Source: Actinobacteria bacterium IMCC26077 (GTDB taxonomy: Bacteria > Actinomycetota > Actinomycetes > Nanopelagicales > Nanopelagicaceae). From it: a stretch of 64,000 nucleotides of DNA. The DNA lies in NCBI GenBank assembly GCA_002284915.1, contig CP015606.1, forward strand, positions 1,426,001 through 1,490,000, read 5' to 3'. Of this stretch, positions 2,592 to 58,359 are shown piece after piece. Each line of letters starts with the position of its first letter. Position 1 is the stretch's first letter. Both the position numbers and the translations under genes were made by a program. The notes below the pieces were generated by a model. The model was not told the origin of the DNA. It saw only the letters and a program-made list of their open reading frames with translations, and did not search any database.

Positions 2592-3329
2592 ATGTCTTTA
2601 CATGGAAAAGTAGCAGTGGTTACTGGTGCATCCAGTGGGATATGCCGTGCTGTGGCCGAACGATTTCGCGATGAGGGCATGCGCGTTATCGGAGTAGACC
2701 TTAACGAGCGCGATTTGAAATCGATTGACGGCATCGAACACCTCTCCGTTGATCTTTCAAATGATGAGGGGCGAGCAAAAGTCGTCGAAGTTGCAACTGG
2801 TGCACATGCACTAGTCAATGGGGCAGCGCTCATCCGATTGAAGAAAATCAGAGAGTTCACTACCCAAGATATTCGAGATATCTACGCGGTCAACGTCGAA
2901 GCCCCCTGGTACCTAATGAGTAAGTTAAGCGAATCGATGAATGATGGTGGCGCTATCGTCAACCTCTCTTCAGTTTCAGCTCGATTAACTGTCACCCCTG
3001 AAACCGCAATCTATGCCTCGTCGAAAACAGCGCTCCTTGCAATGACTCGTTCGTGGGCACATGTTCTAGCGCCGCGCAACATCAATGTGAATGCAGTTCT
3101 GCCAGGGATTACCAACACCCCCATGCAGGAACATGTACTTCATCGGTTATCTGAATTACGAGGAACTCCATACGCGGAAATGGAGGCGAACCGATTAGAG
3201 AGCATTCCGATGAAACGAGCGGCAGCGCCATCGGAGATTGCGGCTCTAGTCCACTTTCTCATTACCGACGAGGCTAAATACATCACAGGTCAAGCGCTCA
3301 GCCAAGATGGCGGAAGCGTGATGTTTTGA
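2592..3329 (+). CDS. Short-chain dehydrogenase/reductase (SDR)
   Basis: A 245-residue SDR with the glycine motif TGASSGICRAV, NGAA in place of NNAG, a catalytic serine in VNLSSVS and YASSK as the catalytic Tyr-Lys pair. The C-terminal signature is KYITGQALSQDGG. The cysteine in GICRA replaces the usual third glycine of TGxxxGIG, a small oddity. It starts 6 bases after the TIM-barrel gene and is the third gene of the 976-3329 unit. It probably oxidises or reduces another intermediate of the same pathway. Substrate not identified. Confidence 0.88.
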   Translation: MSLHGKVAVVTGASSGICRAVAERFRDEGMRVIGVDLNERDLKSIDGIEHLSVDLSNDEGRAKVVEVATGAHALVNGAALIRLKKIREFTTQDIRDIYAVNVEAPWYLMSKLSESMNDGGAIVNLSSVSARLTVTPETAIYASSKTALLAMTRSWAHVLAPRNINVNAVLPGITNTPMQEHVLHRLSELRGTPYAEMEANRLESIPMKRAAAPSEIAALVHFLITDEAKYITGQALSQDGGSVMF

Positions 3330-46286: not shown

Positions 46287-49200
46287 ATGGAAATTCCGAG
46301 TTATCTTCAGAGATTCTTCAAGTCTCTTACTCGGTTTTTGATCGCTTTTTTATTTGGATTACTACTTTCAATAATGAACCAAGTTAGCTCTTCAGCTGCA
46401 CTTCTCAGCACAACTTCCACCAACACTCCAGTGATAAATCCTGGAGGAGGATCTCAAAATGGCGCAGCTAGCTGTGCTGCAGATCAAGTAGTCGTAGGTT
46501 TTCGTTGGTCGGGAGGAACTTCAACCTCTTCGCCTTATTCCATTTTTTGTCGAGCTCTCAATTTGGATGGCACTATTCCTGAAACTCAATCTAATGCGAC
46601 CAATTCCACAGCTGTAGCCGTTTACGTAAATGCAAGTGCTGCCAACGTTGAATGGTGTCCCGCAGGAACCGTTGCGACTGGTGTAAGGCATCGTGGCTGG
46701 GCTGACTTCTCACTAATCTGCAATACCCCGCCTGGATTGGACTCGACTCCCACCTACTCCCACGCCGTCTCAGGCACCACGACAGATCGTTCGTGCACAG
46801 CGGGTTCATTACTGACCGGAATGGGTACCTGGACAGGAGCATGGCTCGATTCGCTTTATGGAGTATGTAAGGCATTTGGCACGAACACGCTTACCTACAA
46901 CGTCAATGGCGGATCAGGAACAGCTCCCCCCAGTGTTTCGCCAAGCTCCCTCACGCCTACAGTTGCAACATCAACTGCGTATACAGGCACTCGCGCTGGC
47001 TTCACTTTTGCGGGGTGGAATACCCTGGCGAATGGGACTGGAACCAATTATTCAAATGGCGCGACCATTTCAGTTACAGCGCCAATAACGCTTTACGCCC
47101 AGTGGAATTCTACTGTGACCTATGATGCAAATGGCGCGACAGGGGGCACAGTTCCAAATACTCAAACCATCACTGGTGCGAGTGGAACAACAAATTTAGC
47201 CTCAAATTCCGGCTCGCTAGTTCGAACCAACTTTACTTTCGCTGGTTGGAACACCAGAGCCGATGGAACCGGCACCACCTATTCTGTGGGGGCTTCATAC
47301 ACCACCACAGGAAATATAACTTTATATGCAAGGTGGCAAGCAACAATTACCTTTGATGGAAATGGTGGTTCTGGCGCAGCGAGCCCTTCGACACAAACCT
47401 CTTCGACTGCTAATTACACCCTTTCAACACAAGGAACGCTGAGCAAAACTCCGCAAACTTTCGCCGGCTGGGGAAGTAATGCAACTGGTACTGGTACTAA
47501 TCTCGGCGCAGGCGTGAGCGTAGTAAATGCTGGAAATACGACCTGGTATGCCCTCTGGAACTCGACGCCAAATATCCCAGATCTCGACGCCAGCTCTGAT
47601 ACTGGAACTTCGAGCACCGATAACAACACGAGCGATCAAACTCCCACATTTATCGCATCGGGTTTAACCGTAAACGCTCTCGTAACAATCGAACTTCGAA
47701 ATGGCTCTGGAGGACTAGTTGGAAATTGCTCCTTTACAGCAACAAGCACAACTGGTTCGTGCACCATCGCATTAGTCCCTCCATTAAGTGCGTTAACCAC
47801 TGCGAGTACCTACTACGCGCAAGTCACGCAACAATTTGGCACGTCAACGACTACCTCTGCTCAGCTCAGTTCCATCACGATAGATGCGACCGGACCCACA
47901 CCACAAATTACGGTTTCTTCTGGCACATCCATTATTTGGACTACAAGAGATACTGGTCAGGTTACTGCTACTGAAACTGGCTCTCTTTACTTAGTACGCA
48001 ACTCTTTAACAGTGACAGATGAAGCGTCAATAACCTCGGCTTCGACGAATCTTTGGAAGAAAATCACGATATCTTCTGCCTCCGTTAACACCAATATTGT
48101 GCTCTCGGGGCTACTTGGTGGCACGTATCGAGCCTACGCATTTGATCAACATGGAAATATGGGCGGGCCATCCACCAATTCCATGAATATTTTCTCGCAA
48201 CCGGGTGCTGCAACAGCTCTCATCGCCACCCCTGGAGTTGGAACCATGGGTCCAAAAATAGACTTGTCTTGGACTGCCCCAGTGGACAATGGAGGGGGGA
48301 TTAATTACTACAACGTTGAATATTCAACTAATGGCGGAACAACGTGGCTTGCATTTCCGAATAAGGCTCCATCCAACAGCCCGTTCAGCATCTATCCCGT
48401 TAATTACGAAACCGATTACATCTTCCGAATTACTCCAGTAAATCTATGGGGCGTCGGAACGACCTCTGATATCTCGAATATTGCAAATGTTGCGATACCA
48501 GCGTGTTCGCCTGCCATGTCACCAAACGGTAAGACACACATCTTCCCCGTTGGCGCTTGTGCGTGGACAGTTCCCTCGGGAGTAACTTCCATCAACATTG
48601 ATGCCCGAGGTGGTCAGGGTGGATGGGGCGTTTACGGATACTCAAATGGCGGAGGTCAACTCACCGGAACGCTCACGGTAACACCAGGAGAAACTCTCTA
48701 TTTATATGTCGGAGATCAAGGAACTATTCCTGCTGGAGTTTTTAACAGCATCGCCGGTCGCCCAGGATTTAACGGTGGTGGTTGGGGTGGATCCACCACA
48801 TCTACTGCCTCAACTAGCAGCGCAATAACCGGTGGTGGCGGTGGTGGCTCAACTGATATTCGAACAAGCAACGCTCTCGCATCACGAATTGCAGTGGCTG
48901 GGGCCGCTGGAGGATCAGCGCACCCACAGGGGAACTCCTGTTGCGTCAACGTTGGGTTTGGAGGCTCGGGAGGTGGAACAACGGGAGGAATCATTGTGAC
49001 TTCAGATGGGCGATCTGGCTCTGCGGGCACACAAAGTTCTGGCGGTGGGCAATCGGGCAGTTTCGGTTCTGCAGGCGCTCTTGGCGTAGGTGGCAATGGT
49101 TCTCACATTGGCACAACGACAACCCTCACATACGCCGGTGGTGGTGGCGGAGGTGGGTACTACGGCGGTGGTGGTGGAAATGCCAACCCGAATTGGGCCA

Positions 49201-52200
49201 CTGGCGGTGGCGGAGGTTCTTCATTCGCAACACATCCACGATTTACCCGAACTGCAGATAACCAAGGGGTCAACTGTGCGCCCGGATTCTTAGCTATCAC
49301 TGTTGGAAATGACCTAACTCAAGTTCCGGGTTTTACTCGCCCATGTATGGCTGCAGCCGATGTCACTCCACCAGTCATCTCTACCCAGACCGTAAGCACA
49401 GATGGAAGAACTATCACTCTTACTTACACCGATGTAAATAACATGAGCAGCACCTACTTCGATCCAACGCTCTTCACCGTCACCAGTGGTGGCACCAATA
49501 TCGCAATCTCTTCCATCAGTGCTACCGGTAAAACTCTTGTGATCACCTTGGCGCGCAACATTGTGCCAGGTGCAACAACGACAATCTCTTACACGGAGCC
49601 CAGCGCGAGCGATGATTTTTACACGGTGCAAGATGCCTTTGGTAATGATGCCATTTCATTCACTAATCGAAGTATTGTCACTACAGGGATAACAGTAGCT
49701 ACTCCTACTTCAATCGATCTCTTAGCTACATCTGATAGTGGCTCTTCAAATACCGATAACAAGACAAATGACACGACGCCAACAATAAGTGCAAGCTCAC
49801 TAGTCATCGGTGCCACCGTCACTTTCTCGGCGCGAATCGGAACTGGAGCTCCCGTCACCTGCACAATTGTTGCGACGGCGACTACCGATTCCTGCACTTT
49901 CGCGACTTTGCCAGTTGGTGTTTACAGCGTCACTGCCACTCAAACAAGTGGCACAACAACAAGTTCAGTCTCTGTCGCGCTAAGTACTCTAGACATCCAG
50001 ACCGCCGGCCCTACTGTCGTGAGCCTTACTAATGACTGGTATGCAAACAATGCCAAAGCTACTACTACGGGAGCGACAACTTTCACGATCACCTTCAGCG
50101 CTGCTGTAACTGGTCTCGAGCGCGCTGATATTGAAAAAACCGGTAATAATTGGGTTTTGGGCGCCACGCTTTCGGGCTCTGGAGCGCAATACGGCATCAC
50201 TGCCACAAATAGCACCGGTGCTTCAGGCAGCGAAGGAATTCTCACTTTCAGAATCCCAGCAAACGTCGCTGTCGATGTCTATGGAAATGGCAATCAAGCC
50301 TCAATTACGTTCACTATCAATCAAGTCACCACAATCACTTTTAACTCCAATTCGGGCGGTAGTGCACCGGCTGCAATGACACAGAGCTCTTCGACTGCGG
50401 CAATCTCGCTACCTGGGGTAGGCGTGATGGCAAAAACGGGGCATTCTTTCTCGGGATGGGCTACGACATCAACCGGCACCACTTCGGTTGGCGCAACCTT
50501 CACGCCTACAAGCAACACAACGTTGTATGCAATCTGGACTCCTGCTGTCTACGTCGTTACGTACAACGCTAATGGTGGCGTCGGTCTACCTTCTCGATCA
50601 ACAGATAGTTATACCTATGGCACGACTGCACTCACTTTGCCAGCAGTTGGCACGCTAACCCGCCAAGGATTCACATTCCGCGGTTGGGGAACGGCAACTA
50701 ACACTGCAGTTGCCTCAGCTATGACGAATACCTACACCCCAACTGCCTCAATTACTTTATATGCAATTTGGCAGGGCAATCCATACACCGTCACTTTTAA
50801 TAAGAATGAAACCTCAGCGACTGGCACGATGAGTACGCAAGCAATAACAGGTGGAACAGCGGTGAATGCGACGGCAAACGCATTTGCTCGAGTGGGATAC
50901 ACCTTTGGCTCATGGAATACCGCAGCCGATGGAACAGGTACGACGGTTACAAATAGCGGATCGATGACGTTCTTTGACAACACCACGCTTTATGCGCAAT
51001 GGGTGGTCGTTGCGCCAGGGGCGCCTACGGTTTCATCAATTACATCAGGAAACACCACTGCTACCGTAACGGTGACAGGCGTTGCGGCGAGCGGAACTAC
51101 CGTTGGTCCAACCGCATCCTTCACGATTCAAGCGTTCGATAGCGCAGGCACAAATGCGATTGCTGGAAGAACTTGCACAATTCTCGCCTCTGCCTCTCCA
51201 CTCAGTTGCCAAGTAACGGGGCTAACAAATAACACTACTTACAAATTTAAAGCTACTGCTGTCAATGCGACTGGTTCTGCAACTGGCGCAATCAGTACCG
51301 CCTCCGCCACCCCGTTGCCGTTTGTCATTACCTACGCAGTTGATGGCGGAACGCTCACACCCACCACTGTAAACTTTAATCTCGGCACTCCCGTAGTACT
51401 CCCAAATCCAACAAAAACAGGAAATACGTTTGTAGGTTGGAACAACCCTTCAAACGTCCTTGTGGGTATTAATGGCGCAAGTTATTCGCCTCCTTCAAAC
51501 ATTACGCTCACCGCACAATGGTCGCCATTTGTCTATAACGTTTTTTACAACGGGAATGGTTCAACCACTGGAACTGTGCCGAGCACTGCAACGTATACGC
51601 ATGGATCTACCTACAGCATTGCTGCTAAAGGAACTATGGCGAAGACCGGCTACCGCTTCTCGGGCTGGAGCGCGCAAATCGATGGAAGTGGCACCCGTTA
51701 TGCAAGCGCAGCCGATGCGATTGCATCATCGAGTGCAACCTTCTCGAGCAATACCGATCTCACGCTTTATGCGCAATGGACAGCCGAGGTCTACACCATC
51801 ACTTACAACACAAACGGAGGCACTGGCGCTCCCGCGCGCGCAAGCGACTCCTACACTTACGGCACATCGGGAATCGCACTGCCTGCAGGAACTGGCCTAT
51901 CCCGAACTGGTTACACCTTCGGGGGTTGGTCTGAGTCGACAACCGGTATCGCAGTCAATAACCCGTATACAACTTCGCAAAGTCGGACGCTCTATGCCCT
52001 GTGGAGTGGAATTCAATATTCGATTTCCTATGATGCTAATGGTGGGAGCGGGTTAATTGCTGATGCCAGCTACACCACTGGTGATTCCGGCATCACCCTT
52101 AACAACGGCGGAACGCTCTCACGCACTGGCTATACCTTTGGTGGTTGGAAAACGCTCAACGGCACCATCGTTAGCGGTGCGCCATTTACCACGACAGAGA

Positions 52201-55200
52201 ATCTCACGCTCTATGCAATCTGGAACCCTAAGAGCGTTTCCGTCCAATACAACAAGGGCGATGCCACTACGACCATCAAGTTCCCGACTGGCTCACCTGC
52301 CAATTTCGGATCAAATCTCACTCTCGCTGCAGCGAACACTGTAGATACAACAACAACTATCAATGGGGATACGTATGCTTTCGCGGGATGGAGTATTGGT
52401 GGGGTTATCTATCAACCGGGTGATCCTTATCGGATCACTAGCGAATCGCCATTAACAGTTACGGCCCAGTGGCTCCGACTATTTGATGTGCGCTACAACC
52501 TCAATGGCGGCACACACGCCTCAGGTGATACGAGCACCGAGAGCGAATGTGTGACAAGTGGGTTGTGCGCAGATACTCAAGTAATTACCCTCAACAGCGC
52601 TCCATTACGAACAGGATTTATCTTCAATGGTTGGGTCGATCAGAGTGGAGCCGCAAGCGTTGATGCTAACGGCACACTCCCGGGAACTCAAACTGCTTTA
52701 AATGACTCCCGCTACATCTTCTACGCATCGTGGACACCCAGCACCTTTACTTTTACCTTCGCACCGGGAATCGGAAGTAATGGCGCTGCAACGCTCCCTA
52801 CCGCTTCATATGGCGATACCGTGACCTTGCCATTGAGCACCGGATACACCGTCGCAGGATCGAAATTCAGCGGTTGGTTAATTGGGACCACTCTCTATCC
52901 GGCAGGATCGCTCTACACAGTCGGCGCAGATTCCTCACCCATTACAGCGACCGCACAATTTGTGAACAACACATTCAAAATTTTCTACAACACCAACGGC
53001 GCAAATACCGGATCCACCCCATCGCCGACAACTGCGCAGGAGGGCGCCGCTATTACCTTGGATGGAGCGACTGGTTTCGGTCGCACGGGATACACCTTCG
53101 ATGGTTGGAGCGATGGCACCAACAAACGCGCAGCAAACTTCGCTACGACGATGCCCGGACAAAACTCCACTCTCGTTGCACAATGGGTAATTGCAGCGCC
53201 GAGTGCGCCAACAATCTCTTCCGTGACTGCCGGCGACTCAGGAGCAACAATCTCGGTGGCGCCAGGAGCTACCGGTGGCGCTCCGGCTTCGTACACCGTT
53301 ACCGCGACCCCTGGTGGTGCAACGTGCACGATAATCTCACCCGCAACAAGTTGCTCTATCACTCCGCTGACAAATGGAACTGCCTACACCTTCAGCGCCA
53401 CTGCAACGAACTCAACGGGAACTTCTGTCGCCACCAACTCATCTTCCATTACTCCAGCAGGTGTTCCGGCGGCTCCTACCGGACTTAGTGCGGTCCGTGG
53501 AAACACCACCGCAACCGTTTCACTCACACCCGTACCTGATGGGTCTACCGGTGGCAAGGCAATAACTTCGTACACCATTACTGCTTATGACGCTTCGGGA
53601 AATGCAGCAGGAACACCCTGCTCTGTTATCCCCGCCGCAACCAGTTGCACAGTTACCGGCTTAACGAATGGATCGGCCTACACATTCAAAGCGACTGCGA
53701 CAAATGGCGTCTACACATCGAGCCTTTCCACTGCATCATCAGCGATTACTCCTGCGACGGTACCTAATCCACCAACTTCTCTCGTTGCTGTGACCACCTC
53801 ACCAAATTCCGCAAATATTACGTTTGTCACCCCAGTTAATAATGGTGGCGATGCGGTCACCAGTTACACCGTCACATCATCGCCAGGTGGGTTTACCTGC
53901 ACTGTGGCCGCACCTGGAACAAGTTGCGCAATTACTGGCTCACTCACAAATGGTGTCGCCTATACATTTACCGCTACGGCAACTAACGGTGTTGGCGCTT
54001 CAACTCCATCGGTTGCCTCCGCACCCATAACACCAATCGGACCGCCAGCCGCGCCATCGAACGTAACTGCTACTGCAGGAGATGGCGGTGCCACTATTTC
54101 TTTCACCGCTCCTAACGCTAATGGCTCTGCAATTACGGGTTATCTTGTTACCGCACTAGATCAAAATGGTGTGCCGTTGAACCCCGCCGTGACCTGCACG
54201 CCAGCACCTGGGGTCACCACATGTGAAATCACCACAGGATTAACAAATGGTGTTCCATACAAATTCTCCGTGGTCGCAACAAACAACGTTGGCCCTTCAC
54301 TAGCTGGAATTACTTCGGCGACTACAACACCGCAGCCGCGAGTCACACCTTCATTGCTCCTTAATGGAACACCTTCCGGTACAACTGCAATTAATAGAAC
54401 CCTCACCGCCCCGCAAGTATTTGACGGTATTCCTGCGCCAACAATTGCTTACCAGTGGCAACGCTGCACTTCACCAACTGATTTCAGCACGTGCACGAAT
54501 ATCACCGGTGCTACTGCGGCGACGTATCAGTTAGCGTTGGCAGATGTCGATGATTACATCAGAGTATCGGCAACAGCAAGCAATACAGTGGCGCCCAATC
54601 TCACGGTTATTTCTGATATCACTGATCTAATTACGGGCGCTCCGCAAGCAACAACGCCAACGACTGGATTGACTGCAAACATCAACGAAAGTTACACCTT
54701 AGCTACTGCAGCTTTTGGTGGCGCCGTCCCGCTCACGTATGCAGTAACAAGTGGCACGCTCCCAACTGGACTAACAATCGATCCATTAACGGGAAACATC
54801 ACCGGCACGCCAACTACTGTCGGGACTGCAACCGTGACGATTACTGCAACGGATCAAAAAGGCACCACTGGCAGCATCACCTTTACGCTTACCGTTGTCG
54901 ATCCCACTCCAGCGCCGTCTGCACCGACTTCACCACCTCCAACTGCACCCTCTGCTCCGCTTAATCCAGGCGCAGATGATGCTGCGCGAGCCGCCGCCGA
55001 GAAAGCAGCGGCCGAGAAAGCAGCCGCCGATGCCGCTGCGAAAGCCGCCGCCGAAAAAGCAACCGCCGATGCCGCTGCGAAAGCAGCCGCCGATGCCGCT
55101 GCAAAAGTAATCGCTGACAAAGCAGCGGCTGATGCCGCGGCACGTGCTGCCGCTGAGAAAAAGAGCGCTGCTAGCCAGGCGCAAGCTGCAGCTCTGGCCG

Positions 55201-56246
55201 CTTCACAAGCGGCAGCCGCAAGAGCCACGGCAGCAGAGGCTGCACGCAAAGCGGCAGCAGATGCCGCTGCGCGAGCAGCAGCTCTCTCACGAAGTAATTT
55301 AGTGAGCGCTGCAGCAAAGCAAACTGCAGCGGCGCAAGCTGCTGCCGCAGAAGCGCGCGCTGTTGCGGCAGTGAAAAACGCTGCGCAAGCAGCGAGCGTT
55401 GCAAATTCAGCAAATGCAAATGCTGCTGCAGCCTCCAAGGAAGTATCGATTTCCATAGGTGCACTAACTTCGGCTCAAGCAGCTGCTGAAAAATCCGCTG
55501 CGTTTGAAGCCCAAGCAAATGCTGCGAAGTCAGCAGCAAAAGCTGCTGCAGAGAGTGCCGCAGCACAAGCACAGCTAGAACGTGATCGCGCAGCTACTGC
55601 CACCAAAGCTGCTGCAGATGCGCTAGCAGCTGCAGCAGAGAAGCAACGAGCTGCTGCGGATGCGGCGGCGGCGGCGCAAGCTGAATCCGCCCGCCTTGCA
55701 CAAGCATCAGCAGAGCGCGCCACGGCAAAAGTTAATGCCGAGAAGGCAGCCAGTGAGGTCGCCGCCATTCTCTCTGAACAAGCAAAACTCTCTGAACAGT
55801 TGATGAGCTCCAAAGATCCAGAACAAATCGCCAAGACGCAAGCTGCCCTTGAAGAACTAAGTGCAAAATTGGAGAGTGCTCAAGAAGTTCTCGATGATGC
55901 AGTAGATACAGTTGAGTCCACTACCGCCCAGGAGAATTCAATCGCGGAAAACGCACGTGTTGCTATTGCACGAGCAGAGTCCACCGTAAAGAGCGCCAAA
56001 AAAGCAAAATCTGAGGCTGCAAAAACACGCGCAGAGGCGCGGGAAGTCGTTACTCAGGCCCTAGTTTCTGAAAGAGCAGCCAAGTCGGCAGCGGCGGCAG
56101 TAAAGACTGTAACTCCGCCTAAAGCACCTACCGCCGCTCCCGCAAGTGCAAAGAAAGTTGATGCTGTCTTTAATGTTGGTGGCCTCAAGCCAGGGCAGAA
56201 AATTAGAGTGATTGTCAAAGTCAACGTCAAAGTCAACGTCAAATGA
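46287..56246 (+). CDS. Giant exported multi-domain repeat protein (3319 aa), probable surface adhesin
   Basis: The N-terminus has a signal peptide or anchor helix (about 14-31). A short Cys-containing domain (50-195) precedes three InlB-type beta-grasp repeats (Listeria-Bacteroides repeat; ...F.GWNT..DG.G..Y....LYAQW) at about 200-428. Then come Ig-like and Fn3 domains (430-740), a Gly-rich block (750-990), Ig-like/SwmB-like domains (1020-1348), three more InlB repeats (1350-1572), an Fn3 domain, eight InlB repeats (1680-2305), four Fn3 domains (2302-2683), an Ig-like and a putative-Ig domain (to 2873), a Pro-rich linker, and an Ala-rich coiled coil (2899-3285). The end is VIVKVNVKVNVK. No LPxTG sorting motif is present. 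A cell-surface adhesin is likely. Confidence 0.88.
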   Translation: MEIPSYLQRFFKSLTRFLIAFLFGLLLSIMNQVSSSAALLSTTSTNTPVINPGGGSQNGAASCAADQVVVGFRWSGGTSTSSPYSIFCRALNLDGTIPETQSNATNSTAVAVYVNASAANVEWCPAGTVATGVRHRGWADFSLICNTPPGLDSTPTYSHAVSGTTTDRSCTAGSLLTGMGTWTGAWLDSLYGVCKAFGTNTLTYNVNGGSGTAPPSVSPSSLTPTVATSTAYTGTRAGFTFAGWNTLANGTGTNYSNGATISVTAPITLYAQWNSTVTYDANGATGGTVPNTQTITGASGTTNLASNSGSLVRTNFTFAGWNTRADGTGTTYSVGASYTTTGNITLYARWQATITFDGNGGSGAASPSTQTSSTANYTLSTQGTLSKTPQTFAGWGSNATGTGTNLGAGVSVVNAGNTTWYALWNSTPNIPDLDASSDTGTSSTDNNTSDQTPTFIASGLTVNALVTIELRNGSGGLVGNCSFTATSTTGSCTIALVPPLSALTTASTYYAQVTQQFGTSTTTSAQLSSITIDATGPTPQITVSSGTSIIWTTRDTGQVTATETGSLYLVRNSLTVTDEASITSASTNLWKKITISSASVNTNIVLSGLLGGTYRAYAFDQHGNMGGPSTNSMNIFSQPGAATALIATPGVGTMGPKIDLSWTAPVDNGGGINYYNVEYSTNGGTTWLAFPNKAPSNSPFSIYPVNYETDYIFRITPVNLWGVGTTSDISNIANVAIPACSPAMSPNGKTHIFPVGACAWTVPSGVTSINIDARGGQGGWGVYGYSNGGGQLTGTLTVTPGETLYLYVGDQGTIPAGVFNSIAGRPGFNGGGWGGSTTSTASTSSAITGGGGGGSTDIRTSNALASRIAVAGAAGGSAHPQGNSCCVNVGFGGSGGGTTGGIIVTSDGRSGSAGTQSSGGGQSGSFGSAGALGVGGNGSHIGTTTTLTYAGGGGGGGYYGGGGGNANPNWATGGGGGSSFATHPRFTRTADNQGVNCAPGFLAITVGNDLTQVPGFTRPCMAAADVTPPVISTQTVSTDGRTITLTYTDVNNMSSTYFDPTLFTVTSGGTNIAISSISATGKTLVITLARNIVPGATTTISYTEPSASDDFYTVQDAFGNDAISFTNRSIVTTGITVATPTSIDLLATSDSGSSNTDNKTNDTTPTISASSLVIGATVTFSARIGTGAPVTCTIVATATTDSCTFATLPVGVYSVTATQTSGTTTSSVSVALSTLDIQTAGPTVVSLTNDWYANNAKATTTGATTFTITFSAAVTGLERADIEKTGNNWVLGATLSGSGAQYGITATNSTGASGSEGILTFRIPANVAVDVYGNGNQASITFTINQVTTITFNSNSGGSAPAAMTQSSSTAAISLPGVGVMAKTGHSFSGWATTSTGTTSVGATFTPTSNTTLYAIWTPAVYVVTYNANGGVGLPSRSTDSYTYGTTALTLPAVGTLTRQGFTFRGWGTATNTAVASAMTNTYTPTASITLYAIWQGNPYTVTFNKNETSATGTMSTQAITGGTAVNATANAFARVGYTFGSWNTAADGTGTTVTNSGSMTFFDNTTLYAQWVVVAPGAPTVSSITSGNTTATVTVTGVAASGTTVGPTASFTIQAFDSAGTNAIAGRTCTILASASPLSCQVTGLTNNTTYKFKATAVNATGSATGAISTASATPLPFVITYAVDGGTLTPTTVNFNLGTPVVLPNPTKTGNTFVGWNNPSNVLVGINGASYSPPSNITLTAQWSPFVYNVFYNGNGSTTGTVPSTATYTHGSTYSIAAKGTMAKTGYRFSGWSAQIDGSGTRYASAADAIASSSATFSSNTDLTLYAQWTAEVYTITYNTNGGTGAPARASDSYTYGTSGIALPAGTGLSRTGYTFGGWSESTTGIAVNNPYTTSQSRTLYALWSGIQYSISYDANGGSGLIADASYTTGDSGITLNNGGTLSRTGYTFGGWKTLNGTIVSGAPFTTTENLTLYAIWNPKSVSVQYNKGDATTTIKFPTGSPANFGSNLTLAAANTVDTTTTINGDTYAFAGWSIGGVIYQPGDPYRITSESPLTVTAQWLRLFDVRYNLNGGTHASGDTSTESECVTSGLCADTQVITLNSAPLRTGFIFNGWVDQSGAASVDANGTLPGTQTALNDSRYIFYASWTPSTFTFTFAPGIGSNGAATLPTASYGDTVTLPLSTGYTVAGSKFSGWLIGTTLYPAGSLYTVGADSSPITATAQFVNNTFKIFYNTNGANTGSTPSPTTAQEGAAITLDGATGFGRTGYTFDGWSDGTNKRAANFATTMPGQNSTLVAQWVIAAPSAPTISSVTAGDSGATISVAPGATGGAPASYTVTATPGGATCTIISPATSCSITPLTNGTAYTFSATATNSTGTSVATNSSSITPAGVPAAPTGLSAVRGNTTATVSLTPVPDGSTGGKAITSYTITAYDASGNAAGTPCSVIPAATSCTVTGLTNGSAYTFKATATNGVYTSSLSTASSAITPATVPNPPTSLVAVTTSPNSANITFVTPVNNGGDAVTSYTVTSSPGGFTCTVAAPGTSCAITGSLTNGVAYTFTATATNGVGASTPSVASAPITPIGPPAAPSNVTATAGDGGATISFTAPNANGSAITGYLVTALDQNGVPLNPAVTCTPAPGVTTCEITTGLTNGVPYKFSVVATNNVGPSLAGITSATTTPQPRVTPSLLLNGTPSGTTAINRTLTAPQVFDGIPAPTIAYQWQRCTSPTDFSTCTNITGATAATYQLALADVDDYIRVSATASNTVAPNLTVISDITDLITGAPQATTPTTGLTANINESYTLATAAFGGAVPLTYAVTSGTLPTGLTIDPLTGNITGTPTTVGTATVTITATDQKGTTGSITFTLTVVDPTPAPSAPTSPPPTAPSAPLNPGADDAARAAAEKAAAEKAAADAAAKAAAEKATADAAAKAAADAAAKVIADKAAADAAARAAAEKKSAASQAQAAALAASQAAAARATAAEAARKAAADAAARAAALSRSNLVSAAAKQTAAAQAAAAEARAVAAVKNAAQAASVANSANANAAAASKEVSISIGALTSAQAAAEKSAAFEAQANAAKSAAKAAAESAAAQAQLERDRAATATKAAADALAAAAEKQRAAADAAAAAQAESARLAQASAERATAKVNAEKAASEVAAILSEQAKLSEQLMSSKDPEQIAKTQAALEELSAKLESAQEVLDDAVDTVESTTAQENSIAENARVAIARAESTVKSAKKAKSEAAKTRAEAREVVTQALVSERAAKSAAAAVKTVTPPKAPTAAPASAKKVDAVFNVGGLKPGQKIRVIVKVNVKVNVK
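56214..56243 (+). repeat. 12-bp tandem repeat at the end of the giant gene
   Basis: The final codons repeat GTCAAAGTCAAC about two and a half times, encoding alternating Val-Lys and Val-Asn residues (VKVNVKVNVK). It lies just before the stop codon and the start of the next gene, so slippage here would change the C-terminus without breaking the frame. Confidence 0.7.
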
Positions 56247-57955
56247 TGCTGAGAAAAACCATGAAGAAAACAGCGCTGCTTATAGCGGTCATTACTCTCA
56301 ATTTTATGGCATTTCCTGCTTGGGCTGAAGGTGAAGTTATTCTTGATCGATTAACAAAAGAGCAAGCGGAAGAGCTAAACATTGTGATTCCAAAGAAAAC
56401 ACCACCAGGTTTTCATTCGCTGACTATTGAAGTCTATGACGACAATGGGGTTGTCAAAGATAAGGAGATTCCATTCTGCAAAAACTTAATTGGTGAAATT
56501 AATTGGGATAACAAATGCCCAGATGTAGCGAAGCTGCAAACTTTTGACCAACTCATGAAAATCAAAGTTCGAGAGGATTTACCGCCATACAAACCCGCTC
56601 AAGAGCCAGAGAAAACTAGTGGTTTGCAGATAGCAGCGCTTGCACTTCTGGCAGCCCTTGCTGGCGCTAAAAAGCAAGATAACCAAACTTCGCCGAAAGA
56701 TTCGGATTCGCCAGAAAGCTCGGAGCCACAACAAGAGGAGTTGTCATCGATTGATGCTGGCAAATTAACTCGTGTAGAGCGAGAAATTGGTTGGGGTGAT
56801 ACGTCGAAAACTTGGCAGACACCTTTTACTACCACAACCGATCATTTATTCTCATCAACTGCCCTCTACTTAAGTCATTACTCACCACTGCTGGCCCGCA
56901 CGGTCGCAGACGGCAGCTACCTCAGAGCGATTTTTGGAGGCTACTGCCTCGGGCTTTTACCAATTGCTTTTTTACTTGGGATCAAAGCGCTCATCGATAC
57001 CAGCGCTCAAGCGATGGCCCCTGCCCTGATAACGATATTGGCGATAGTTGCGATTGCGATTCTCGATGCAGCTGCGGGTGCTGTAGCGGCCACGATTTTC
57101 ATCGTTGGCAACTTATTGGCTGGTGGAATTTCCAGCCGTTCTGAAGCGCTTACCGTCTTAGGTGTAGCTGCGATATTTGTCGCACCTGCATTGCTGGCAA
57201 GTGCGATTCGTCCCCTTCGCCGAATGGTCATCGACTCTGATGGTCGCTGGGAGCGGATCACCGACTACGCGTTAACAACGCTTTTGACCGGATGGATTGT
57301 CGAGAAGATGGTTAATGCTCTAAATGGACTTTCAGGGGTGCAGCTGGCAGTCACCTACCAGGCGAGAACTATCGCAATTCTCGCGGCAACTTTCATATTC
57401 ATCCGCATGGTTGGCGAAGATGTAGCTACATATTTTTATCCGGCTCGAATGCGAAAAGTAGATGTAGAGCTAGCAGATCCCACCCGAAGGCAGAAAGTTG
57501 TTTCCAGCACCATCAGGGTTGGTTTCTTTATTTTGCTTGCCACTCCGTATGTTGGCCTCCACCTGCAGTTACTTATCGCTGGAGTAATCTTCATAATTCC
57601 ATTAATTGCGAACTTCACTTTCGCTGATGCTTTGCCGAAGTTTGAGAAGTTACACCAATTTTTACCGAAGGCAACCTTCAAATTAGTACTGCTTACAATA
57701 GTTGGCGCCCTCTTGGCTACGTACTTGCAGGAGCGCATTACTAATCCAACAGAATTCTTACGTTGGTGTTTTGTTGTCGTTGCGATTCCTGGATTACTTA
57801 TTGCAATTATGGAATGGTTCACAGTGGAACCTACTCGGGATTGGAAAGCATCAAATAGTGGACGCTGGATCTACCGTCTTGGTGGAGTGGTAATTTTCTT
57901 GACGACAATTCAAATTGTTCGTGGTGTAGACATCACAAGTTGGATCAATAACTAA
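56243..57955 (+). CDS. Polytopic membrane protein paired with the giant surface protein
   Basis: A 570-residue protein. A signal peptide (MKKTALLIAVITLNFMAFPAWA, about residues 7-28) precedes an extracytoplasmic part of about 110 residues and an acidic, Ser/Gln-rich stretch (140-170). About nine transmembrane helices follow from residue 215 onward. I recognise no family. The start overlaps the giant gene's stop (ATGA), so the two are translated together. ATGs at 56246 and 56261 are alternative starts. It may export, anchor or sense the giant protein; that is inferred from coupling only. Confidence 0.82.
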   Translation: MMLRKTMKKTALLIAVITLNFMAFPAWAEGEVILDRLTKEQAEELNIVIPKKTPPGFHSLTIEVYDDNGVVKDKEIPFCKNLIGEINWDNKCPDVAKLQTFDQLMKIKVREDLPPYKPAQEPEKTSGLQIAALALLAALAGAKKQDNQTSPKDSDSPESSEPQQEELSSIDAGKLTRVEREIGWGDTSKTWQTPFTTTTDHLFSSTALYLSHYSPLLARTVADGSYLRAIFGGYCLGLLPIAFLLGIKALIDTSAQAMAPALITILAIVAIAILDAAAGAVAATIFIVGNLLAGGISSRSEALTVLGVAAIFVAPALLASAIRPLRRMVIDSDGRWERITDYALTTLLTGWIVEKMVNALNGLSGVQLAVTYQARTIAILAATFIFIRMVGEDVATYFYPARMRKVDVELADPTRRQKVVSSTIRVGFFILLATPYVGLHLQLLIAGVIFIIPLIANFTFADALPKFEKLHQFLPKATFKLVLLTIVGALLATYLQERITNPTEFLRWCFVVVAIPGLLIAIMEWFTVEPTRDWKASNSGRWIYRLGGVVIFLTTIQIVRGVDITSWINN

Positions 57956-57960
57956 TCAAC

Positions 57961-58197
57961 TCACCACACAGTAGGAATCTCAGTGCGCCCGATATCTTCG
58001 AACGCCCTGAGAAATTGATTGATTATGGGCGAAGCGTCGTAGTAATTAACTTTCCGCCTACGTAAAGCGGAGTGAATCTCTGAAGTATCCATCTCCCAGA
58101 TGCCCAACCGCTTGAGGTCTTTGAGATAGGAGATACGAGTTTGGTATTTATAGGGACGGCGGTTGATTTCTGCGGTAGCGAATTCGGAGACTTTCAT
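57961..58197 (-). CDS. Hypothetical basic protein (78 aa) downstream of tRNA-Val
   Basis: A 78-residue basic protein (MKVSEFATAEINRRPYKYQ...). The segment RISYLKDLKRLGIWEMDTSEIHSALRRRK is helical and Arg/Lys-rich. I do not recognise a family; a helical nucleic-acid-binding fragment is possible. The open frame extends into the tRNA gene, but the ATG at 58197 follows AGGAAAGGG at good spacing. A hairpin covers this ribosome binding site. It converges with the giant-protein operon six bases away. Confidence 0.55.
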   Translation of the reverse strand: MKVSEFATAEINRRPYKYQTRISYLKDLKRLGIWEMDTSEIHSALRRRKVNYYDASPIINQFLRAFEDIGRTEIPTVW

Positions 58198-58198
58198 G

Positions 58199-58224
58199 AT
58201 GACCCTTTCCTGTTGCAGGGTCAT
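58199..58224 (-). promoter_or_regulatory. Hairpin over the ribosome binding site of the 78-aa gene
   Basis: On the minus strand ATGACCC and GGGTCAT form a perfect 7-bp stem whose loop and 3' arm contain AGGAAAGGG, the ribosome binding site of the ATG at 58197. It could limit translation until opened. Confidence 0.45.
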
Positions 58225-58232
58225 ATCTGAAA

Positions 58233-58253
58233 TACCGCCCCTAATGGGCGGTA
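58233..58253 (-). terminator. Probable terminator after tRNA-Val
   Basis: On the minus strand TACCGCCC and GGGCGGTA form an 8-bp GC-rich stem with a five-base loop, followed by TTTC. It lies about 35 bases after the tRNA 3' end. The T-run is short, so termination may be partial and allow read-through into the 78-aa gene. Confidence 0.5.
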
Positions 58254-58287
58254 AGTGAGCAGAACTACCGACTTTTCCTAGAACTTG

Positions 58288-58359
58288 TGGGCGGTGAGGG
58301 TTTCGAACCCCCGACATCCTCGGTGTAAGCGAGGCGCTCTACCGCTGAGCTAACCACCC
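58288..58359 (-). tRNA. tRNA-Val (anticodon TAC)
   Basis: A 72-nt cloverleaf on the minus strand. The acceptor stem is GGGTGGT with ACCGCCC (one G-U pair), the D-arm TTAGCTCAGC, the anticodon stem CTCGC/GCGAG-type pairing around TTACACC, and the T-arm GGGGGTTCGAAACCC. The discriminator base is A and CCA is not encoded. It lies 56 bases after the peroxiredoxin gene on the same strand. Confidence 0.95.

Follow-up and report, generated by a model that had tools for sequence, protein, structure and literature searches.

The question raised by this locus is how a secreted protein of 3319 amino acids might be held at the surface of a cell in which no sortase was detected. The locus lies in a stretch of 64,000 nucleotides (hereafter the window; positions 1426001-1490000) of the closed 1.55-Mb genome of Actinobacteria bacterium IMCC26077, which belongs to the same family as the cultured 'Ca. 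Planktophila' LanE-43. Members of the 'Ca. Nanopelagicales' (acI) have very small genomes and rank among the most abundant bacteria of fresh waters. In the window, a gene for the 3319-amino-acid protein (46287..56246, +, ATG start; open reading frame calls, Pfam and hydropathy) is followed by a gene for a 570-amino-acid membrane protein (56243..57955, +, ATG start). We call the first product the passenger and the second the partner. The genes share a 4-nucleotide ATGA (56243..56246, +, in ...GTCAAATGATGCTG...) and are translationally coupled, and the repeat frame of about 10 kb joined by ATGA to a membrane-protein frame in a preliminary description of this DNA is indeed present. That description also suggested secretion, anchoring or sensing of the first protein as possible roles of the second. 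The anchoring part is supported by the conservation of the pair and by fused homologues. From the sequences compared, we consider it likely that the two genes encode a split immunoglobulin (Ig)-like domain, which would serve as a two-gene, sortase-free and non-covalent means of surface display by strand complementation.

Conservation of the pair and diversity of the passengers

The homologue search covered 296 genomes of the same family, and the partner family was present in 62 of them and in 9 of the 17 genera. It was absent from all four congeners searched, and viral contigs gave no matches. A query of genome contigs with the single protein also gave none, and a query with an alignment gave 20 named loci, from lake metagenome-assembled genomes and the isolate LanE-43. 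About 40 homologue neighbourhoods were inspected. When a close homologue had intact upstream sequence, a gene for a secreted passenger almost always preceded it. Gene spacing was measured in 26 pairs: the overlap was 4 nucleotides in 19, 1 nucleotide in five and 8 nucleotides in one, and the last pair was separated by 2 nucleotides. The exceptions among the loci read were G267, where the partner is 8 kb away, and G192, which has no adjacent partner. A wide occurrence of the membrane protein without such partners, named beforehand as the observation that would speak against a link, was not seen within the close clade. The pair is a real one, conserved over many species.

The overlap might be the site of a programmed frameshift that yields one fused polypeptide and thereby restores an ancestral chain. 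The same frame offset in 25 of the 26 pairs fits this idea, but overlaps of 4 and 1 nucleotides are also the usual geometries of reinitiation. Moreover, the joint lacks a conserved slippery sequence, the second protein carries a signal peptide of its own, and one pair is 8 kb apart. We regard a frameshift as extremely unlikely.

The passenger in the window has 12 significant List_Bact/InlB repeats and one divergent repeat, six fn3 domains, SWM and Big_13 Ig-like domains, and a Gly-rich domain at residues 771-984, all found with Pfam and much as had been described from the sequence alone. There are 13 F.GW repeat cores. The hydropathy scan found a single hydrophobic helix, the signal-peptide helix at residues 10-36 (46314..46394, +). 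The Ala-rich coil that was noted before is present at residues ~2896-3275 (54972..56111, +). However, it is not at the extreme C-terminus, as about 30 residues (NVGGLKPGQKIRVIVKVNVKVNVK) follow it, and these are the conserved part. The predicted lack of a sortase motif was correct, since the passenger sequence contains no LPxT[GANS], and PF04203 had no match in the closed genome while the controls were detected. Anchoring by an LPXTG motif and sortase was rejected on these grounds.

Complete passengers range from 257 to 3632 amino acids and have unrelated Pfam architectures. They include InlB/fn3 giants and proteins with Ice_binding (DUF3494-like), TIG/He_PIG, LRR_5 (BspA) plus DUF4082, or Laminin_G_3 plus Gly-rich domains, and the one of 257 amino acids is mostly disordered. 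In LanE-43, two nearly identical membrane proteins are paired with passengers of 2014 and 3452 amino acids, which can be aligned only over fn3-like segments. In one subclade of the membrane protein, represented by four loci, the passengers are DUF3494 ice-binding-like proteins on Pro/Thr-rich stalks. The Ala content of the last 300 residues varies from 3 to 40 % across passengers. Therefore, the Ala-rich coil was rejected as a conserved partner-binding element, and the earlier idea of a link through this coil is not supported. The element that the passengers have in common is a tag of 20-30 residues after the coil.

The C-terminal tag and a probable split Ig-like domain

This tag, the extreme C-terminus of ~20-30 residues (~GLKPGQKIKVTVKVK), is the sole feature common to the passengers. 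Its consensus is N.A....GLKPGQKIKVTVK.. and in the window it occupies residues 3290-3319 (KVDAVFNVGGLKPGQKIRVIVKVNVKVNVK; 56154..56243, +), which probably form the first half of the split Ig-like domain. The tag differs between subclades, with KPGQK in one and KVGSK or VIGQ in others. We searched all 296 genomes with a tag profile and found 34 strong instances in 28 genomes. Twenty-nine of them abut the membrane gene, four are second copies a short way upstream within the same open reading frame, and one is displaced by 8 kb. No strong instance was found elsewhere in these genomes, and thus there were no tagged passengers that would act in trans. The lack of tags elsewhere and five tag-bearing genomes that had contributed nothing to the profile are the informative parts of this census. 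At four loci the passengers have two tandem tag copies, 40-70 residues apart.

The putative second half is the extracellular N-terminal domain of the partner (residues ~30-80; 56330..56482, +; ..ILDRLTKEQAEELNIVIPKKTPPGFHSLTIEVYDDNGVVKDKEIPF). It is acidic, with a charge of -5 in the window against +6 for the tag. The relation between the two halves is suggested by homologues in which they are not separated. At two loci within the family, a single long protein has a surface passenger as its N-terminal part and ends in the membrane domain, and the same layout is found in six genomes from other families of the class (2377 amino acids in one, 1138 and 800 in another). Eight fused regions have one continuous Ig-like domain directly before the membrane domain (for example, ..VSVSAAGLKPGSTVQIQVYSAEQVIGSATADGSGSAVIAATMPSDLPPGTQTIMAVGTGPDGQPVQSVGGF... 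in L180). The tag is similar to the first third of this domain, and the N-domain of the 570-amino-acid protein (EELNIVIPKKTPPGFHSLTIEVYDDNGVVKDKEIPF) is similar to its second part.

For 19 natural pairs, we joined the tag to the N-domain in the order of the genes and aligned the resulting profile to the Ig domains of the fusions with hhalign. The score was 46.8 (Prob 95.7, P 8.4e-9), and the alignment spans residues 2 to 76, crossing the split with a gap of 3 residues. The reversed order scored 29.7, matching with the N-domain only, and 300 shuffles of the tag columns reached at most 34.9. When aligned separately, the tag fell on fusion positions 8-26 and the N-domain on positions 50-79. With a smaller set of three fusions the score was 30.0, compared with a maximum of 18.9 in 200 shuffles and 17.1 in reversed order. 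In the Pfam family Big_13 (PF19077), the best concatenation scored 25.5 bits, its N-domain alone 19.3 and the best of nine shuffles 23.0; matches were obtained for 13 of the 19 concatenations and for 8 of 19 in reversed order. The fusion joints match Big_3_5 (PF16640) weakly, and a PDB sequence search with the tag and N-domain profile gave nothing useful. By profile comparison, the tag and the N-domain are homologous to two pieces, in order, of one Ig-like domain of natural fusions. The joined tag and N-domain align across Big_13, but here the domain is divided between two genes.

In the membrane-domain tree, the split genes cluster in a single group that requires one change (support 90/98), and fused forms branch at several places. 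This tree gives the split clade a single origin. Since the split genes form one group and the fused forms are scattered, an ancestral fusion was probably cut once, inside its Ig domain, and the downstream half then gained its own signal peptide. The direction from fusion to fission rests on a tree whose root is not fixed and in which some branches are long.

The half-domains might also be relics of this fission that do not interact, so that the overlap would only ensure joint expression of an adhesin and a membrane protein that acts independently of it. Gene overlaps are common by themselves, and membrane-domain homologues without tagged partners exist, namely a clade in SipW-like operons and a clade of 650-amino-acid proteins. 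Relics would be expected to decay, yet LKPGQK persists at the very end of passengers whose other parts have been replaced, and conservation of the N-domain keeps pace with it. The displaced pair in G267 also retains both halves. We therefore find this explanation very unlikely.

Several observations weigh against a split domain that docks. Some fused homologues have no recognizable Ig domain at the joint (L173 and L174-L176 differ). The best Big_13 score is under the curated cut-off of 27 bits, and the pair in the window scores 16.3 bits. The intact membrane gene in G192 has no tagged neighbour. The second internal tag in some passengers is not explained by pure 1:1 anchoring. The co-occurrence of tags and membrane genes is partly by construction, because most of the tails used to train the profile came from neighbours of membrane genes, and the species behind these counts are related. 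Finally, the membrane domain is conserved beyond the needs of a passive anchor.

The membrane partner and the proposed docking

No match to the 570-amino-acid protein was found in Pfam or NCBIfam. It starts with a signal helix and has about 9-10 hydrophobic helices, in agreement with the first description of a signal peptide and about nine helices. An FCK...WDNKC motif (56474..56518, +) stands directly after the half-Ig. Its residues F78, C79, K80, W88 and C92 are invariant or nearly so across the close clade, and C79 and C92, which are invariant, possibly form a disulfide. An AlphaFold2 (AF2) model with a mean predicted local distance difference test (pLDDT) score of 64.6 has only a lone two-strand hairpin in the N-domain (strands 56-66 and 69-80), which is the expectation for an incomplete domain but no proof of one.

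The polytopic membrane domain (residues ~181-570; 56783..57952, +) has conserved charged residues (D223, R228, D275, R323, R326, R327, R338, D341, R388, E392, R402 and R545). In the split clade it has no conserved Cys or His, the best columns being 2 of 24 for Cys and 11 of 24 for His. S214 is kept in 23 of 24 split-clade sequences, without a His partner. Neither Foldseek nor VIA-align gave a clear known fold for the whole protein or for the membrane domain alone. The S-components RibU, ThiT and FolT of energy-coupling factor (ECF) transporters are among the best structural rows (Z 6.1-7.8 over ~133-141 residues, below the reliability limit of the tool), and Foldseek found nothing significant. 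A resemblance of the modelled membrane domain to the ECF S-component fold is thus a weak lead.

Could the partner be an enzyme that processes the tag? LPXTG/sortase, PEP-CTERM/exosortase and GlyGly-CTERM/rhombosortase signals consist of a motif, a transmembrane helix and a basic cluster at the C-terminus (PMC3237569). In these systems, a short C-terminal region is found on unrelated secreted proteins, and the polytopic partner is adjacent in genomes with a single target (PMC3237569). The passengers here have the same arrangement, with most tags next to a dedicated polytopic protein, and the tag might be a sorting signal at which an exosortase-, rhombosortase- or sortase-like enzyme cleaves and transfers the passenger. 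However, the tag is predicted to be a basic beta-hairpin without a transmembrane helix, and it may be internal and doubled. Exosortases have a catalytic Cys and rhomboids have Ser/His, and the membrane domain of the partner conserves neither Cys nor His. Unlike exosortase-type systems, there is strictly one passenger for each membrane gene, and fused homologues exist, with an intact Ig domain at the same place. Covalent sorting by an exosortase- or rhomboid-like enzyme was rejected because the tag has no transmembrane helix and conserved Cys/His are missing, and we rate a sorting enzyme of any such kind as unlikely.

Alternatively, the partner might act mainly in secretion or insertion, as a dedicated factor that binds the tag while the passenger is exported and releases the passenger afterwards. 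The conserved charged residues in the polytopic domain and the translational coupling are consistent with this. On the other hand, each protein has its own Sec-type signal helix, and the fusions keep the passenger and the membrane domain in a single chain, a layout more in keeping with retention than with release. We consider a secretion factor quite unlikely.

With split-domain docking, the product of the upstream gene would be a secreted passenger, whatever its architecture, and its C-terminus would be a short, basic beta-hairpin tag that supplies the first strands of the domain. The downstream gene would provide a membrane protein whose own signal peptide exposes the acidic, incomplete Ig half-domain on an anchor of about 9-10 helices. 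Overlapping translation would make both proteins at the same time and place. After export of both, the tag would complete the half-domain by strand complementation, and the passenger would be retained non-covalently, without sortase or a covalent wall link. We infer the physical docking, the strand complementation and the anchoring of the passenger from the sequences. The conserved charged residues are a hint that the membrane domain has a role beyond anchoring. More tentatively, streamlined planktonic actinobacteria may swap giant, variable surface proteins on a constant anchor by means of this split-Ig snap fastener, with the charged membrane domain actively using the docked state for sensing, energized display or release.

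Genomic setting, related systems and significance

The gene pair is 0.3 kb upstream of a tRNA gene (58288-58359, -). At a congener locus, the interval from NIF3 to the tRNA carries other genes, including a 720-amino-acid catalase-peroxidase-like open reading frame, and a 25-nucleotide near-copy of the tRNA end. Because of these other genes and the near-copy, the cassette seems to be located in a variable island at the tRNA. An open reading frame of 118 amino acids (57961-58317, -) overlaps the tRNA, has no family match and is probably no real gene. Distant homologues of the membrane protein at five other loci are clustered with a signal-peptidase (Peptidase_S26/SipW-like) gene, a DnaJ-domain protein and small exported proteins. 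One of these DnaJ-domain proteins carries collagen-type repeats. This cluster is possibly a second surface-fibre system. A further clade, also represented by five loci, consists of ~650-amino-acid homologues encoded by single genes without an obvious passenger.

In donor-strand complementation, as in chaperone-usher pili, a short strand of one protein completes the incomplete Ig-like fold of another. By analogy, the short tag is proposed to complete an Ig-like fold here. Unlike in these pili, the acceptor would be on a membrane anchor, the Ig domain would have the tag as its N-terminal part, and a fused ancestor would have given rise to the pair. The fused actinobacterial homologues from other families have the same membrane domain, and several have the same Ig-like domain directly before it, but they are one polypeptide and have no free C-terminal tag. 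We found no description in the open-access literature of a tag/membrane-partner system of this kind, or of how large surface proteins are held in acI. A tag with a dedicated membrane partner is a known layout, and there is a plausible case that the display mechanism here is new.

LanE-43 has been published as 'Ca. Planktophila landstejnensis' of the order 'Ca. Nanopelagicales', and two phages were isolated for it (PMC10202952). If split-domain docking is true, it would provide a concrete sortase-free anchoring mechanism and a functional context for a family without a Pfam entry. As a natural peptide that completes a split Ig domain, the tag could also be of use for non-covalent display. Surface variation, as in phage receptors, grazing defence and adhesion, would become testable in cultured LanE-43, which has two copies of the system.

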